From: Desulfuromusa sp.
GTDB lineage: Bacteria > Desulfobacterota > Desulfuromonadia > Desulfuromonadales > Geopsychrobacteraceae
Assembly: GCA_027858895.1 (NCBI GenBank)
Contig: JAQIBX010000069.1
Coordinates: 1-46,767 of the forward strand
DNA length: 46,767 nt
Reading direction: 5' to 3'
Within the stretch, counting starts at the first letter, position 1, and every line of letters begins with the position of its first letter. Both the position numbers and the translations under genes were made by a program. Below the pieces are notes generated by a model. That model searched no databases. It was not told where the DNA came from and saw only the letters and a list, made by a program, of their open reading frames with translations. This document shows, piece after piece, positions 1 to 17,611 of the stretch.

Positions 1-1523
1 GTAATGGTCAGTCCACTCTCACCACGCAGCAGGGGTCGGGCAGCTTCGGTGAGTTTCAACACCGAATAATTGGCGATATCCTGCTCCAGATAGCCACAAT
101 GGATCAATTGCCGCAACAGGTGACTCCAGTGATCCTGATTCTGTTCACGGCCAATGCCGTAGGTCGAGAGCTGATCATGACGCAAATCAAAAATTCGCTG
201 CGTCTTGGCGCCGCGTAACACTTCTATAACGTGTCCAATCCCAAAACGCTGTCCCACCCGATAGACACACGAAAGAACTTTGCGGGCATCTTCACTGGCA
301 TCGTAACGCTGCGGAGGATTAAGACAGATATCGCAATTAGCACAATCTTCCGCGAGTGTTTCACCGAAATAACCCAATAATGCTCGGCGGCGGCAAGTAC
401 CCGATTCGGCAAAAGCGACCATCGCATTCAGTTTGTGAATTTCGATCCGTTTTTGTTCCGGGTTCCCCCCTTTTTCGATCAAACCCCGGCTGATGGCGAT
501 ATCACCATAACCAAACAGTAACAGGGCTTCGGCGGGCAGACCATCCCGCCCGGCTCGGCCGGTTTCCTGGTAATAACTTTCCAAATTTTTCGGCAGATCG
601 TAATGGACGACAAAGCGAACATTAGGCTTGTCAATTCCCATGCCGAAAGCAACCGTCGCCACCACAATCTGGAGATCATCACGGAGGAAATCTTCCTGAA
701 CCTGCCTCCGTTCAGCGGTCGGCAACCCGGCATGATAAGCGGCCGCCTTTAATCCACCCTGGCGTAATTTTCCAGCAACCTCATCAACCCGTTTACGGCT
801 GAGGCAATAAACGATTCCCGCATCATTGTGGCAATTGTCGAGAAATGCATTCAGTTGCAGATAGGGCTTGGCCTTGTTAATCACGGTATAACGGATATTC
901 GGTCGATCAAAGCTGGCAACCACCTGGCGGGCATTGTGTAAATTCAAATGCTGTAGAATATCGAGGCGGGTCTGCTTTTCAGCAGTTGCCGTCAGGGCAA
1001 CCATCGGTACGCCAGGGAAATAATTGCGCAGTTTCCCTAGGCCGGTATATTCGGGGCGGAAATCGTGCCCCCATTGCGAGACACAGTGGGCTTCATCAAT
1101 GGCAAAGAGGGCAATTTCAAAGGATCGCAATCGTTCCAGAAAATCAGAACTTAATAAACGCTCCGGCGCAACATAAAGCAAGTCAAGTTGACCTGCATGC
1201 AACTGGGCCAAAACCTGACGAGCCTCAACTGCCCCCAGAGATGAATTGTAACAAGCGGCACGAACACCATTAGCATGCAAGGCATCGACCTGATCTTTCA
1301 TCAGCGAAATCAAGGGTGACACGACAATCGCGATACCGCTGCGGTGCAGAGCTGGAAGCTGGAAACAGAGCGACTTGCCGCCGCCGGTCGGCATCAGAAC
1401 AAAAGCATCTTCGCCCTGAATCAAACCGTTAATAATTTCTTCCTGAAAGGGACGAAAAGACTGATAACCAAAAACATCATTTAAGGTCTTGCGAACCGAG
1501 GCCTTTTCTGTGGTGTCTAACAT
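1..1523 (-). CDS. recQ: ATP-dependent DNA helicase RecQ (partial, C-terminus off window)
   Basis: 3'-5' DNA helicase of recombination and replication-fork repair, cytoplasmic. Reading from ATG at 1523, 507 codons are open to the window edge with no stop, so the gene is truncated by the window and not broken. Visible motifs: Walker A TGGGKS at residues 46-51, DEAH at 143-146 within AIDEAHCVSQWGHDFRP, motif VI QETGRAGRDG, and the RecQ-specific zinc cysteines in CRRRALLGYFGE...CANCDIC, followed by a winged-helix RQC region. The C-terminal HRDC domain, if present, lies outside. The upstream gene on the same strand (UbiD-like) ends 184 bp away, with a palindromic repeat between them, so co-transcription is uncertain. 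The motif set is unambiguous for RecQ. Confidence 0.96.
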   Translation of the reverse strand, partial: MLDTTEKASVRKTLNDVFGYQSFRPFQEEIINGLIQGEDAFVLMPTGGGKSLCFQLPALHRSGIAIVVSPLISLMKDQVDALHANGVRAACYNSSLGAVEARQVLAQLHAGQLDLLYVAPERLLSSDFLERLRSFEIALFAIDEAHCVSQWGHDFRPEYTGLGKLRNYFPGVPMVALTATAEKQTRLDILQHLNLHNARQVVASFDRPNIRYTVINKAKPYLQLNAFLDNCHNDAGIVYCLSRKRVDEVAGKLRQGGLKAAAYHAGLPTAERRQVQEDFLRDDLQIVVATVAFGMGIDKPNVRFVVHYDLPKNLESYYQETGRAGRDGLPAEALLLFGYGDIAISRGLIEKGGNPEQKRIEIHKLNAMVAFAESGTCRRRALLGYFGETLAEDCANCDICLNPPQRYDASEDARKVLSCVYRVGQRFGIGHVIEVLRGAKTQRIFDLRHDQLSTYGIGREQNQDHWSHLLRQLIHCGYLEQDIANYSVLKLTEAARPLLRGESGLTI

Positions 1524-1573
1524 TAATTATATCCCGATCAGTATCAATCTTCCGCTTAACTTTAATGAACATT

Positions 1574-13849: not shown

Positions 13850-14725
13850 CTATGTTGCTCTTTCTATTAATTCACCCATCTGCTCGCGGTTAAAGTGGTA
13901 GTGATGGCGACAGTACTCACAAATAACCTCAACCGGCTCCTGCTCCTCGGTTAGAGAGGTAAGTTCCTTGCGCCCAAGACCGATTAACATCTGCTCAATC
14001 TGCTGCAGACTACAAGGGCAAGAAAAATCCAAAGGGATCTCTTGCTGCACGTGAAAACCGGCAGCGGAAAATATCCGGGCAAGAATCTCAGTTGGCGTCA
14101 TCCCTTGGCGCAGCATACTGGTCGTTGGAGGAAGCCCTTTTATTCGCTCACTCAAAATTTCAATCGCGGCAGAATCTCCTGGAGGTAGGGATTGAACTAG
14201 AAAACCCCCAGCAACCGCAACCTGTCCTTGCAAATCAAGCTCAACTCCCAGCCCGATACTGGATGGAACTTGTTCTGAACTGGTCAGATACCAGGCCAAA
14301 TCCTCAGCGATTTCACTGCTCTGCAGTTGCACCATGCTCTGGTAGGGAGTTTTTAGACCAAGATCCTTCCAGACATGGAGAAAGCCAGCTTTACCTACCG
14401 CTCCAGCCACATCAAAACGATCGCCATCCGGGGGCAAATTAGCCACGGGGTTACGGATTGATCCACGGATTTTCCCCTTGGCATCAGCCTCAACACTCAA
14501 TTTACCCAGTGGGCCATTTCCTTCAACAACCAGAGCAAGGCGTTGTTGACCCTTGAGCAGACAGCCCAACAAAGCGCCGCCGGTCAACAAGCGCCCCAGC
14601 GCAACTGTCGCAGTCAGATCGGTCTGCTGTTTTTCACAGATAGTGCGTACCAATTCGGTTGTGACCGCTGCTGCCGCACGAAACAAACCATCGGGGCTGA
14701 CTACCCGGATTAAATGATCTTGCAT
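13850..14725 (-). CDS. hslO: Hsp33 redox-regulated chaperone
   Basis: 291-residue cytoplasmic holdase chaperone switched on by oxidation. The redox zinc site is complete near the C-terminus: C236-x-C238 (FSCPCS) and C269-x2-C272 (ICEYC). In reduced protein these bind Zn; disulfide formation unfolds the linker and exposes the client-binding surface. The length is normal. Its start lies 24 bp after the stop of the AhpD-like selenoprotein gene, on the same strand, so the two are probably co-transcribed and share an oxidative-stress context. Confidence 0.95.
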   Translation of the reverse strand: MQDHLIRVVSPDGLFRAAAAVTTELVRTICEKQQTDLTATVALGRLLTGGALLGCLLKGQQRLALVVEGNGPLGKLSVEADAKGKIRGSIRNPVANLPPDGDRFDVAGAVGKAGFLHVWKDLGLKTPYQSMVQLQSSEIAEDLAWYLTSSEQVPSSIGLGVELDLQGQVAVAGGFLVQSLPPGDSAAIEILSERIKGLPPTTSMLRQGMTPTEILARIFSAAGFHVQQEIPLDFSCPCSLQQIEQMLIGLGRKELTSLTEEQEPVEVICEYCRHHYHFNREQMGELIERAT

Positions 14726-14749: not shown

Positions 14750-15031
14750 TTAGTTTCCTTTTTCCTTGTATTTATTCTCAACTTCGCGCAATTGTGCATT
14801 TATTTTCCCCGCCGAAACCGCCATGCATATCCCCTGCACTGCGCCGATTTCTTCACCGGTAATTCCCTGTCCCTCAGCCACGCCAAGGTAGTGTGCCATT
14901 CAAGGGCCACATCCGCTTGTCATTGCTGCAGCCAGGCCAATCAAGATAGTGGTTTTTTTATCGAGCGATGACTCATCTCTCACAGCATCATAAAATGTAT
15001 TGAATGCGGTACGGTTTTTTCCTGATAACAT
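14750..15031 (-). CDS. AhpD/CMD-like selenoprotein (in-frame TGA = Sec44)
   Basis: A 93-residue frame starts at ATG 15031 (GGGGAG about 6 nt upstream) and ends at TAA 14750-14752, interrupted only by TGA at 14900-14902. Read as selenocysteine, it gives ILIGLAAAMTSGCGPU-MAHYLGVAEG, a carboxymuconolactone decarboxylase/AhpD-type core with redox motif C41-x2-U44 and the family's His at 47. Downstream sequence (GITGEEIGAVQ, MAVSAGKINAQ) continues the fold without loss of coding character. AhpD-like proteins reduce peroxides or peroxiredoxins through a CxxC pair followed by His; Sec in the second position is known in this superfamily. A bSECIS-like hairpin follows the TGA. The gene starts 14 bp after the ABC permease stop and ends 24 bp before hslO. 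A plain nonsense mutation of CGPC is the alternative. Confidence 0.82.
14872..14888 (-). promoter_or_regulatory. bSECIS-like hairpin after the TGA
   Basis: In the mRNA, 11 nt after the UGA, CCUUGGC pairs with GCUGAGG (seven pairs including two G-U wobbles) around the loop GUG. The loop begins 18 nt after the UGA. Bacterial SECIS elements are small stem-loops whose apical GU lies roughly 16-37 nt downstream of the UGA and is contacted by SelB, so both position and loop fit. Confidence 0.65.
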
Positions 15032-15045
15032 ATCTCTCTCCCCTT

Positions 15046-15834
15046 TCAGGCGCGCAAACGATAGCCCTTGCCAATCAGCCAGGCAGCCCAGGCAAACAAA
15101 ACAGCCGCTATCCCAAAACTGACGCCGAAAGCAATCAGATAACTGGTATCACCAACGCCGATAATCGCATGCCGAAAACCATCAATCAGATAGAATAATG
15201 GATTAAGATAAGAAAATGTCCCCCAGGGATCGGGAAGAATAGAGATGGGGTAAAAAACCCCACCGAGATAGACCAACGGTAAAATTAAAAAATTACTGTA
15301 CATAGAAAGCGTGTCAAAATTATGCGCATAAATTGCAGCAATTAAGCCGAACTGGGCGAACAAAAAACTGGCCAAAATCGCCATCAAGATCGCCAACAAG
15401 GGAGATTCCCATGGCAATTCCGCAAACAAAGTTGAAATCAGCCAGACCACAGTTCCAACCAGCAACCCGCGTAGCATTGCTGCCAGCGTGTAGGCCATGA
15501 TGAACTGTGGTGGACTGACCGGGGTCACCAACAGATCGACAATCCCGCCCAGATAACGCGACATAAATAAAGATGATGAGGTATTGGCGAAAGTATTATT
15601 TATCACCCCCATAATAATCAAGCCCGGGATGACAAATTGGGCGTAACTGAACCCTTCAAGAACATGAAGTCGCTCTCCCAAAGTTGCCCCGAAGATAAAA
15701 AGGTATAATGACGCCGTCACTATCGGGGTTAACAATGTCTGGGTTGAAACTCTGACGAACCGCAAAATTTCTTTGCGCAGCAGGGTGACAAAAGGGAGCC
15801 AGGGATAATATTTATTATCTGGAATGGTGACCAT
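15046..15834 (-). CDS. ABC-2 type exporter permease (YadH-like)
   Basis: 262-residue integral membrane protein with six predicted helices of the ABC-2 (NodJ/DrrB/YadH) family; typical segments are YAQFVIPGLIIMGVINNTFANTSS in the first half and VYLGGVFYPISILP near the end. It would form the membrane channel for the ATPase encoded just upstream, whose gene it overlaps by 20 bp. Length matches YadH (about 256 residues). Substrate unknown; relatives export polyketides, lipids or polysaccharides. The AhpD-like selenoprotein gene starts 14 bp after its stop. Confidence 0.88.
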   Translation of the reverse strand: MVTIPDNKYYPWLPFVTLLRKEILRFVRVSTQTLLTPIVTASLYLFIFGATLGERLHVLEGFSYAQFVIPGLIIMGVINNTFANTSSSLFMSRYLGGIVDLLVTPVSPPQFIMAYTLAAMLRGLLVGTVVWLISTLFAELPWESPLLAILMAILASFLFAQFGLIAAIYAHNFDTLSMYSNFLILPLVYLGGVFYPISILPDPWGTFSYLNPLFYLIDGFRHAIIGVGDTSYLIAFGVSFGIAAVLFAWAAWLIGKGYRLRA

Positions 15835-16750
15835 TGACGCCCCCGTTCATTCCAGTCAGGTGAATAAATACATCCTCCAAACTACTCTGATCAGTCTCAA
15901 CATCTTGAATCTTCAAACCTAATTCTGTGAGTTGGATTAGTACATTTCCGGCCCCTTCGCCGGCAGGCAAGCTAAGCAGAAGTACATTGCCGTCCTCTAT
16001 CAATTTGGGTGCATAAGGTTCCAAGCTCGCAGGAGTTTTCAGCAAGGGCTCCTCCAACCAAAGACGTAACTGGCGATTGGACAGGCGTCGGATCAGCTTT
16101 TGTGTCTCCTCCAGTGCAATCAGTTCACCATGATTCATGATCGCGATTCGGTCACACATCTGTTCAGCTTCTTCCAGATAATGAGTTGTCAACAAAATCG
16201 TGGTTCCCTGCCGATTGATTTCCCGCACAAATTCCCATAAACCATGCCGCAACTCGACATCAACCCCGGCGGTGGGTTCATCCAGTAGCAACAACTTCGG
16301 GCGATGGATAAGCGCCTTGGCGATCATGAAGCGTCGCTTCAAACCACCTGATAATTTCAACATCACCTTATCCAGGTGGGGTTTCAATCCAAGACGTTCG
16401 ATCAACAATTGTCGCCAGGCCGGATCATCTTTGACCCCGTAATAACCGGCATGCAGTTGGAGGGCCTGATCCACAGTAAAGAAATTATCAATGACAATTT
16501 CCTGGTGCACGACTCCCAGCATCCTTCGGGTATAGCGGTAATCGCGCTGATTGTCGTAACCAAAGGCAGTGATACTCCCTGACCCCAGACGGACCACCCC
16601 GGCAATCATGTTGATTGTGGTACTTTTCCCGGCACCATTGGGGCCGAGCAAGCCAAAAATCTCACCCTTATGAATGGTAAAACTGACCCCCTTTACCGCC
16701 GGAACCCCGTCAAAAGACTTGTGCAAATTTTCAATAACCAATGCGCTCAT
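15815..16750 (-). CDS. ABC exporter ATP-binding protein (YadG-like)
   Basis: 311-residue ATPase of an ABC-2 exporter. Walker A GPNGAGKST at about 36-44, signature LSGGLKRR, Walker B LLLLDEPTAGVD and the switch His in LLTTHYLEEAEQ are all present. The start is set at ATG 16750 (MSALVIENLHKSFDG), where homology begins; an open extension to 16801 has no ribosome site and no family similarity. It heads a four-gene run: ATPase, permease, AhpD-like selenoprotein, hslO. Length matches YadG (about 308 residues). Confidence 0.9.
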   Translation of the reverse strand: MSALVIENLHKSFDGVPAVKGVSFTIHKGEIFGLLGPNGAGKSTTINMIAGVVRLGSGSITAFGYDNQRDYRYTRRMLGVVHQEIVIDNFFTVDQALQLHAGYYGVKDDPAWRQLLIERLGLKPHLDKVMLKLSGGLKRRFMIAKALIHRPKLLLLDEPTAGVDVELRHGLWEFVREINRQGTTILLTTHYLEEAEQMCDRIAIMNHGELIALEETQKLIRRLSNRQLRLWLEEPLLKTPASLEPYAPKLIEDGNVLLLSLPAGEGAGNVLIQLTELGLKIQDVETDQSSLEDVFIHLTGMNGGVNGHHSR

Positions 16751-16849
16751 GGCGCGAATATACAACCGCACCTTCAACCTGGCAAGAGCGGAGCACGACA
16801 AAGCTGAATATATTTACCTCCAGAATCAAAGTGCACTTCTTTCAGTTTC

Positions 16850-16960: not shown

Positions 16961-17611
16961 ATGCCGATAAAAAAAATACGCTCTTTTCTGATTGCCAAAA
17001 GCTATGACTATGCCATGCGGAGCACGGAAAAAAAATGTCTGCACGGATGGCGCAAAGAGCTGCTATCCCAGGCCAGTGGTGACCTTCTGGAGATTGGAGC
17101 AGGGACAGGGGTCAACCTCCCACACTACCCTGAATCGGTCACACAGATTGTCCTGAGTGAGCCAGACACACAGATGCGCAAAAGACTACAGCGCCAAACA
17201 GTAGAAACACAGATAAACAGATTTCATATTACGGATTGGGGTGCAGACTCGATAGAAATGCCGGATGCATCTTTCGATACTATTGTTTCCACCTTAGTCC
17301 TCTGTTCCGTCCCCAGCCTTGAAACCAGTCTCAAAGAAATTTATCGCTTATTACGCCCCAATGGCACATTACTTTTTCTTGAGCATGTTATTTCTAACCA
17401 CCCGTCAACCTTGACCTGGCAACATCGGATCGAACCCTACTGGAGCTTTTGTGCTGGGAATTGCCATTTAACTCGCGACACAGCCGCTGCCATCCATGCT
17501 ACTGGGCTGCAAATCGAACAGTTAACCGAAGCTCCAATGACCGGAACTCCAGCGTTTGTTCGCAGAACAATTCGCGGAACAGCAAGAAAAGCATTGAATT
17601 CCAAGAAATGA
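16961..17611 (+). CDS. Class I SAM-dependent methyltransferase
   Basis: 216-residue protein with a Rossmann-type methyltransferase core: motif I LLEIGAGTGVNLPHYP at about residues 43-58, an acidic residue after strand 2 (LSEPD), and motif LRPNGTLLFLEHV near residue 140, as in the Methyltransf_11 group. Small-molecule substrates (quinones, lipids, thiols) are typical, but none can be assigned here. It is the first gene of a short plus-strand unit; the parvulin-like gene starts 6 bp after its stop. Confidence 0.87.
   Translation: MPIKKIRSFLIAKSYDYAMRSTEKKCLHGWRKELLSQASGDLLEIGAGTGVNLPHYPESVTQIVLSEPDTQMRKRLQRQTVETQINRFHITDWGADSIEMPDASFDTIVSTLVLCSVPSLETSLKEIYRLLRPNGTLLFLEHVISNHPSTLTWQHRIEPYWSFCAGNCHLTRDTAAAIHATGLQIEQLTEAPMTGTPAFVRRTIRGTARKALNSKK

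Follow-up and report, generated by a model that had tools for sequence, protein, structure and literature searches.

The window, the whole 46,767-nt stretch of Desulfuromusa DNA analyzed here, carries on its minus strand a 93-codon frame that, on sequence grounds, is very probably an intact selenoprotein gene in which UGA is decoded as selenocysteine (Sec). An earlier note on this DNA, which named no strand, had taken the frame for a real selenoprotein gene, and this claim was supported by conservation of the UGA and of the SECIS-type hairpin that follows it, by exchange of Sec and Cys among homologues, and by the presence of selA, selB, and selD.

A frame interrupted by a single UGA

The AhpD/CMD-like frame contained everything the earlier note had described, all of it on the minus strand: its own ribosome binding site, a TGA in the motif CGP-TGA as the sole interruption, and a TAA end (Table 1). 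That UGA is the only in-frame stop within the 93 codons. With UGA read as U, the product is MLSGKNRTAFNTFYDAVRDESSLDKKTTILIGLAAAMTSGCGPUMAHYLGVAEGQGITGEEIGAVQGICMAVSAGKINAQLREVENKYKEKGN; with Cys put at U, it matched the Pfam CMD family (PF02627) at 43.9 bits, above the gathering cutoff of 23. We infer that Sec is inserted here: SelB and tRNA-Sec would decode the codon-44 UGA at the downstream SECIS hairpin and yield a 93-residue, all-helical CMD-fold protein with a Cys-Gly-Pro-Sec redox pair, in which C41 and U44 may form a selenenyl-sulfide.

Table 1. Positions of the selenoprotein gene, its signals, and neighboring genes in the window
Feature	Position	Strand	Evidence
Selenoprotein gene, 93 codons with UGA = Sec (predicted)	14753..15031	minus	Translation; Pfam CMD; 22 intact family orthologues
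TAA stop of the selenoprotein gene	14752..14750	minus	Sequence
Putative Sec codon UGA, codon 44, in C-G-P-UGA	14902..14900	minus	UGA in 22/22 intact family copies
Ribosome binding site AAAGGGGAG, ATG 6 nt further on	15038..15046	minus	Read from sequence
SECIS-type hairpin, 7-bp stem, GUG loop, UGA 11 nt before	14888..14872	minus	Sequence, energy, conservation
ABC-2 type permease, directly upstream	15046..15834	minus	NF011648, 249.6 bits (cutoff, 225)
ABC transporter ATPase, same run	15815..16801	minus	Best NCBIfam match drrA, 250.7 bits, under the cutoff of 312.45
hslO (Hsp33), directly downstream	13850..14725	minus	NF001033, 287.1 bits (cutoff, 244)
moeA-type gene, cut by the contig end	45739..46767	plus	76% to moeA of genome G007, residues 1-343 of 405

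Codon 44 among homologues

Matches were present in 25 of 44 genomes of the family; 22 of these copies are intact with UGA at codon 44, three are broken (G029, G030, and G034), and none has Cys. The intact copies share 50 to 82% identity with the window protein. Within the genus the gene was found in 4 of 14 genomes, the other 10 giving no match. In the order, 51 of 136 genomes matched profile A1 (E value of 1e-8), and in the class 64 of 277 did so (E value of 1e-10). An intact Sec copy is also present in the record of Malonomonas rubra DSM 5091 (L139). By eye, from match lists and sequences, the 64 class matches were divided into 45 stand-alone Sec forms, including one with a frame shift near the C terminus (G185), 10 Cys forms, 1 Leu form (G132), 3 interrupted copies (G030, G124, and G134), and 5 longer frames that end in the domain. 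The last five are MduS-type proteins, four above the cutoff of 380 and the fifth at 303.4. Across the phylum, profile A2 matched 34 of 395 sampled genomes (E value of 1e-10; weak and fused forms counted).

The exchange of Sec and Cys at codon 44, which the earlier note had named as a check, was thus seen among homologues: Cys occupies the Sec place in the 10 class genomes and at one further locus (L158). The same note had named varied sense codons in close relatives, together with an unconserved hairpin, as grounds for refutation. This pattern was not seen; UGA stands in all 22 intact family copies, and the class holds a single Leu copy. Selection also extends past the UGA. For six close copies (15 pairs pooled, hairpin codons excluded), pS/pN was 0.748/0.093 on the 5' side of the UGA and 0.796/0.129 on its 3' side; the sequence past the UGA is thus under protein-level selection.

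In the Leu copy (G132; L083/L140), TTA stands in place of the Sec codon, all 7 hairpin pairs remain, and selA-selB lie behind the gene; either Sec was lost recently or the sequence contains an error. One interrupted copy (L092, the same gene as L159; about 1140-1571, reverse strand) has an insertion of ~140 bp directly past the UGA, bounded by a short direct repeat that contains the UGA. The gene is dispensable, since relatives with Leu, Cys, or interrupted copies (G029, G030, G034, G124, and G134) exist. At most forks the tree was too weak (10 of 74 inner branches starred), and no direction was drawn for the Sec/Cys change. The Cys state required 4 changes over this tree, in which 8 Geobacter-type Cys rows grouped together (support of 87) and two more distant Cys loci, L228 and L229, were plainly misplaced on a branch of 8.14.

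The UGA could instead be a true stop left by a nonsense mutation, making the frame a pseudogene of a CMD-type protein. Decay does occur, as the five truly interrupted copies and the 10 genus genomes without a match illustrate, but it would not account for a UGA retained in every intact family copy down to 50% identity, for constraint that continues beyond it, or for the conserved SECIS described below. We consider decay of the window gene very improbable.

A conserved hairpin downstream of the UGA

The earlier note had proposed a hairpin, CCUUGGC-GUG-GCUGAGG, beginning 11 nt past the UGA with its loop starting after 18 nt, and it lies exactly as claimed. It was compared with the four criteria for bacterial SECIS elements quoted in excerpts of PMC13188914, which set the energy limit at -7.5 kcal/mol. 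The window hairpin agrees with them, having a 3-nt loop that opens with G, a 7-bp stem, a spacing of 18 nt, and an energy of -8.1 kcal/mol (34-mer). When the sequence was synonymously recoded with the window's codon usage, 7 pairs arose with a P value of 0.026 and an equal or lower energy with a P value of 0.22; taken singly, without conservation, the window hairpin is thus only suggestive. All 22 family copies have 7 pairs, with per-sequence P values of 0.014 to 0.086 that are not independent because the sequences are related; their energies were less striking (P values up to 0.22).

Conservation points to selection on the RNA itself. The stand-alone Sec loci number 57 and comprise 55 distinct 48-mers; 52 loci have 7 of 7 hairpin pairs and 5 have 6, and 56 of the 57 lie at or under -7.5 kcal/mol. 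Stem pairs 2, 4, and 5 show two-sided changes, as does pair 1 in a single locus, while pair 6 is invariant. Codon +7, which lies in the loop, varies freely among the 22 family copies, while codon +5 is CTT or CTC, codon +8 is GCC or GCT, and codon +9 always ends in G; in 13 of the 22 it is AGG, the rarest Arg codon in the 25 long frames of the window. The 11 close Cys homologues retain only 1 to 5 hairpin pairs, and a G opens the loop in 57/57 Sec loci versus 0/11 Cys loci. Conservation of the hairpin therefore bears out the proposal: Sec forms preserve it, and the 11 close Cys forms have lost it. Judged by these alignments, the hairpin is under RNA-level selection, and Sec/Cys exchange goes with loss of the SECIS. 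The Cys homologues amount to a natural experiment in which the SECIS vanishes along with selenocysteine.

Further CxPU loci of the phylum (n = 9: L203 to L210 and L212, L203 repeating L163) showed 7 pairs in seven cases and 6 in two, and phylum Cys loci (L211 and L213 to L215) showed 2 to 4. In Cys loci that are more distant, the pairs number 4 (L226), 6 (L228), and 5 (L229); the latter two, read in the same register, lack a G at the start of the loop. MduS-type loci (L108 to L111 and L128) have a hairpin of their own, equally far from the UGA but built on another stem; in this type the SECIS has thus kept its position and changed its sequence.

Selenocysteine machinery and the probable position of selC

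The earlier note had proposed a search for the sel genes. Three of the four, selA, selB, and selD, were found in the same genome, above their cutoffs and together on one contig (C102), but selC was not found in the draft. The SelD frame (L018, on C102) has an in-frame UGA of its own, in SSGUAAKIG, so SelD is probably a selenoprotein too.

The draft assembly gave no selC match above the Rfam cutoff, which was exceeded in 34 of 44 family genomes. Ten tRNA-Sec matches below the cutoff were obtained in the window's genome; those that could be checked (eight loci) were other tRNAs according to ARAGORN. A typed selC pattern, one without a positive control, had no match in this genome, and tblastn of selA in 20 selC loci returned nothing. 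Of these 20 fetched loci, five had their flanks read (L049, L050, L053, and L062 from the genus and L059 from the family), and in all five selC lies directly behind a moeA-type gene. The window has such a gene at its end (Table 1), the best match to that moeA in this genome, with an NCBIfam MoeA-type score of 335.7 bits, under the cutoff of 440. Because selC follows moeA in relatives and the window moeA overruns the contig end, a contig break best explains the absence of selC, and we infer that selC lies just beyond the contig end.

The frame would also be open if UGA coded here for some other amino acid or were read through without selenium. UGA, however, terminates 11 of the 25 long frames in the window and 6 of the 22 family copies of the gene itself, Cys is the exchange partner in class genomes, and selA, selB, and selD are present. 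A UGA of other meaning is thus scarcely credible, and decoding as Sec is the reading we retain.

Fold and active site

A predicted model of the window protein, made with 33 sequences, had a pLDDT of 88.4 and a pTM of 0.70. The nearest solved structures were CMD proteins, with query TM-scores of 0.68 to 0.72 to 3bey and RclX; a structure search with the model gave no match at an E value of ≤0.001. According to excerpts of PMC3141380, AhpD activity depends on Glu118, Cys130, His132, Cys133, and His137. By an ungapped alignment to 7y4r and spacing from the first Cys, the corresponding places in the window protein hold Ile, Cys, Pro, Sec, and Tyr, and hence Glu118, His132, and His137 of the relay are absent. 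In all 22 rows of A1 the Glu118 place is taken by I, V, T, or L and never by Glu; all 33 rows of A2 have Tyr at the His137 place.

The "AhpD-like" label of the earlier note therefore holds for the fold, as the model has a CMD fold, but not for the catalytic relay, and the window protein, as modeled, appears to have an AhpD fold without the AhpD relay. Nor can the His three residues past the UGA be the family His, as had been proposed: the AhpD His sits at Cys133 + 4 (His137), where 57/57 Sec loci and 11/11 Cys loci have Tyr. The U+3 residue itself is His in 42 and Tyr in 12 of the 57 Sec loci.

These features bear on whether the product could be a working AhpD-type selenoperoxidase with the classical proton relay. 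The CMD fold and two redox residues at CxxC spacing, with Sec in the Cys133 place, would fit such an enzyme; however, of the relay residues only the two Cys places are kept. We regard this function as unlikely. Because the relay Glu and His are absent, a role in thiol/selenol redox or metal(loid) handling is likelier than classical AhpD peroxidase chemistry, and we propose this role as a plausible one, with confidence somewhat short of even.

Gene neighborhood

In the window the permease gene, the selenoprotein gene, and hslO are closely spaced and all lie on the minus strand. Permease and hslO genes flank the selenoprotein gene in 22 of 22 intact family loci, and the ATPase gene is present in 21 (the remaining locus, L033, starts at a contig edge). 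A divergent methyltransferase-type gene (16961-17611, plus strand) adjoins this run and lies upstream in several family loci too; its NCBIfam matches are weak, one of them being to the methyltransferase part of ArsM_AhpD_UU (50.9 of 510).

Elsewhere the context differs. All 18 gene-carrying genomes of families f3 and f20, among them those with the Leu copy and the interrupted copy of G134, have selA directly downstream on the same strand, an arrangement that places a selenoprotein gene inside the operon of its own synthesis machinery. The gene stands right before selA at L087, L088, L091, L096 to L107, L152, L083, L085, and L093, and at L152 before selA-selB.

Outside the order, 9 of the 14 gene-carrying class genomes (G183, G185, G187, G206, G245, G249, G250, G252, and G256) have hgcA-hgcB directly upstream on the same strand. 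Behind hgcA-hgcB the Sec form is present in G185, G187, and G206 and the Cys form in the other six. Among the remaining five, G149 has arsM, G155, G200, and G235 have neither in their flanks, and G141 is truncated at the edge of its contig. Outside the class, G551 carries hgcA, hgcB, and the gene in line, and in G425 a single strand carries arsM, the gene, and then hgcA. An arsM neighbor was found in five loci (G149, G425, G407, and two Terriglobia records). By locus, the gene lies behind hgcA-hgcB at L112 to L117, L122 to L124, and L208 (L118 and L119 being exceptions) and between arsM and hgcA at L204; the arsM-adjoining relatives are L119, L154, L157, and L209, with the order arsM, gene, and arsC-like gene and an ArsR-type frame upstream at L157. 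Neighbor identities exceeded their cutoffs for HgcA in 6/6 scanned, for HgcB in 2/2, and for arsenite methyltransferase in 4/4. Absences of neighbors are weak evidence, since flanks often covered only 1 to 1.5 kb.

HgcA was above its cutoff in 156 of the 277 class genomes, far more than carry the gene. At an E value of 1e-30, HgcA was found in 15 of 44 family genomes and in none of the 14 genomes of the genus, the window's own included. Where both were placed in family genomes, HgcA was not near the gene, lying on a different contig or >1 Mb away (the place of HgcA in G036 is unlisted). A mercury methylation link was sought in the window's own organism and not found, its genus being without HgcA.

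Proposed role

The neighbors may carry no information about function. A general small redox selenoprotein could have been inserted by chance in several operons, and contexts do vary by lineage (hslO, selA, hgcAB, arsM, or none in the flanks), while most of the 156 HgcA-bearing class genomes lack the gene. Against chance stand the 9 of 14 class genomes outside the order with the gene right behind hgcA-hgcB, the recurrence of the hgcA link in two further lineages, and the five loci with arsM. In our judgment chance insertion could about equally well be right or wrong.

Tentatively, the subfamily might instead be dedicated to metal(loid) methylation as its selenol/thiol partner. It would serve as the third gene of hgcAB clusters in part of the Geobacter lineage and as an ArsM partner elsewhere; it would be a fused domain in methyltransferase selenoproteins such as MduS; and in the window's lineage, a genus without hgcA, the same chemistry would take place beside an exporter and Hsp33. 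Behind hgcAB, a lost Sec would have been replaced by Cys with its place unchanged. In such chemistry, soft metal(loid)s or organoselenium could be bound, reduced, or passed on. The link of the relatives to metal(loid) methylation is intriguing but unproven; if the hgcAB/arsM neighborhood mirrors function, the gene would be an accessory gene, open to testing, for the formation of methylmercury and the methylation of arsenic. Excerpts of PMC13188914 and PMC11588087 report that in some organisms HgcA and HgcB are selenoproteins themselves. A literature search joining hgcA/hgcB to carboxymuconolactone decarboxylase or alkylhydroperoxidase returned only PMC13188914, where, in the excerpts available, they occupy separate table rows, and a search for AhpD downstream of hgcAB, with most subscription papers outside its scope, found none.

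Comparison with known selenoproteins

An NCBIfam scan of the window protein gave no family above its own cutoff. The nearest models (score/cutoff) were MduS (50.2/380 bits), ArsM_AhpD_UU (47.6/510), and GSU3128 (24.2/110), the first two of which carry selenoprotein names. Because these scores are far below the cutoffs, standard annotation would probably truncate or miss the gene.

MduS (NF045649) shares with the window protein, which aligns to its positions 237 to 315, a CxPU motif in a CMD-type domain, here a C-terminal AhpD domain, and a hairpin at equal distance past the UGA. MduS, however, carries a methyltransferase domain, whereas the window protein stands alone, and MduS-type genes have a different stem and read UTDFGLA where the window has UMAHYLG. 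Likewise, the AhpD domain of the ArsM/AhpD selenoprotein (NF041537) aligns with the window protein, and stand-alone relatives of the latter adjoin arsM, but NF041537 is a methyltransferase fused to its AhpD domain and the 93-residue window protein is unfused. The GSU3128 (seleno)protein (NF041047) is similarly a small CMD-type protein with CxxU or CxxC; all 33 A2 members match its model at an E value of ≤0.001 (best, 1.6e-9), yet the window protein falls far below its cutoff. GSU3128-type proteins correspond to the "distant AhpD homolog" of selenoprotein surveys, as described in excerpts of PMC1794560 and PMC13188914; a literature search for GSU3128 by name found nothing. Mycobacterium tuberculosis AhpD (1gu9) shares the helical fold (query-normalized TM-score of 0.59 to 0.61) and the CxxC spacing, but its chains have 168 to 172 residues versus 93, and the relay Glu and both His residues are lacking in the window protein.

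CxxU AhpD-like and CMD-like selenoproteins are already known (excerpts of PMC2398784, PMC1794560, and PMC13188914), and a CMD-like selenoprotein of Geobacter sulfurreducens was predicted in 2005 (excerpt of PMC1242214). The metagenome sets in the excerpts of PMC2398784 and PMC13188914 have Pfam CMD and CxxU in common with the window protein; likened by description only, the CMD-like set, e.g., MBW1767730.1, may include the window subfamily. We conclude that the window protein appears to represent a new subfamily within the known CxxU CMD-type selenoproteins, set apart from the NCBI models by score.
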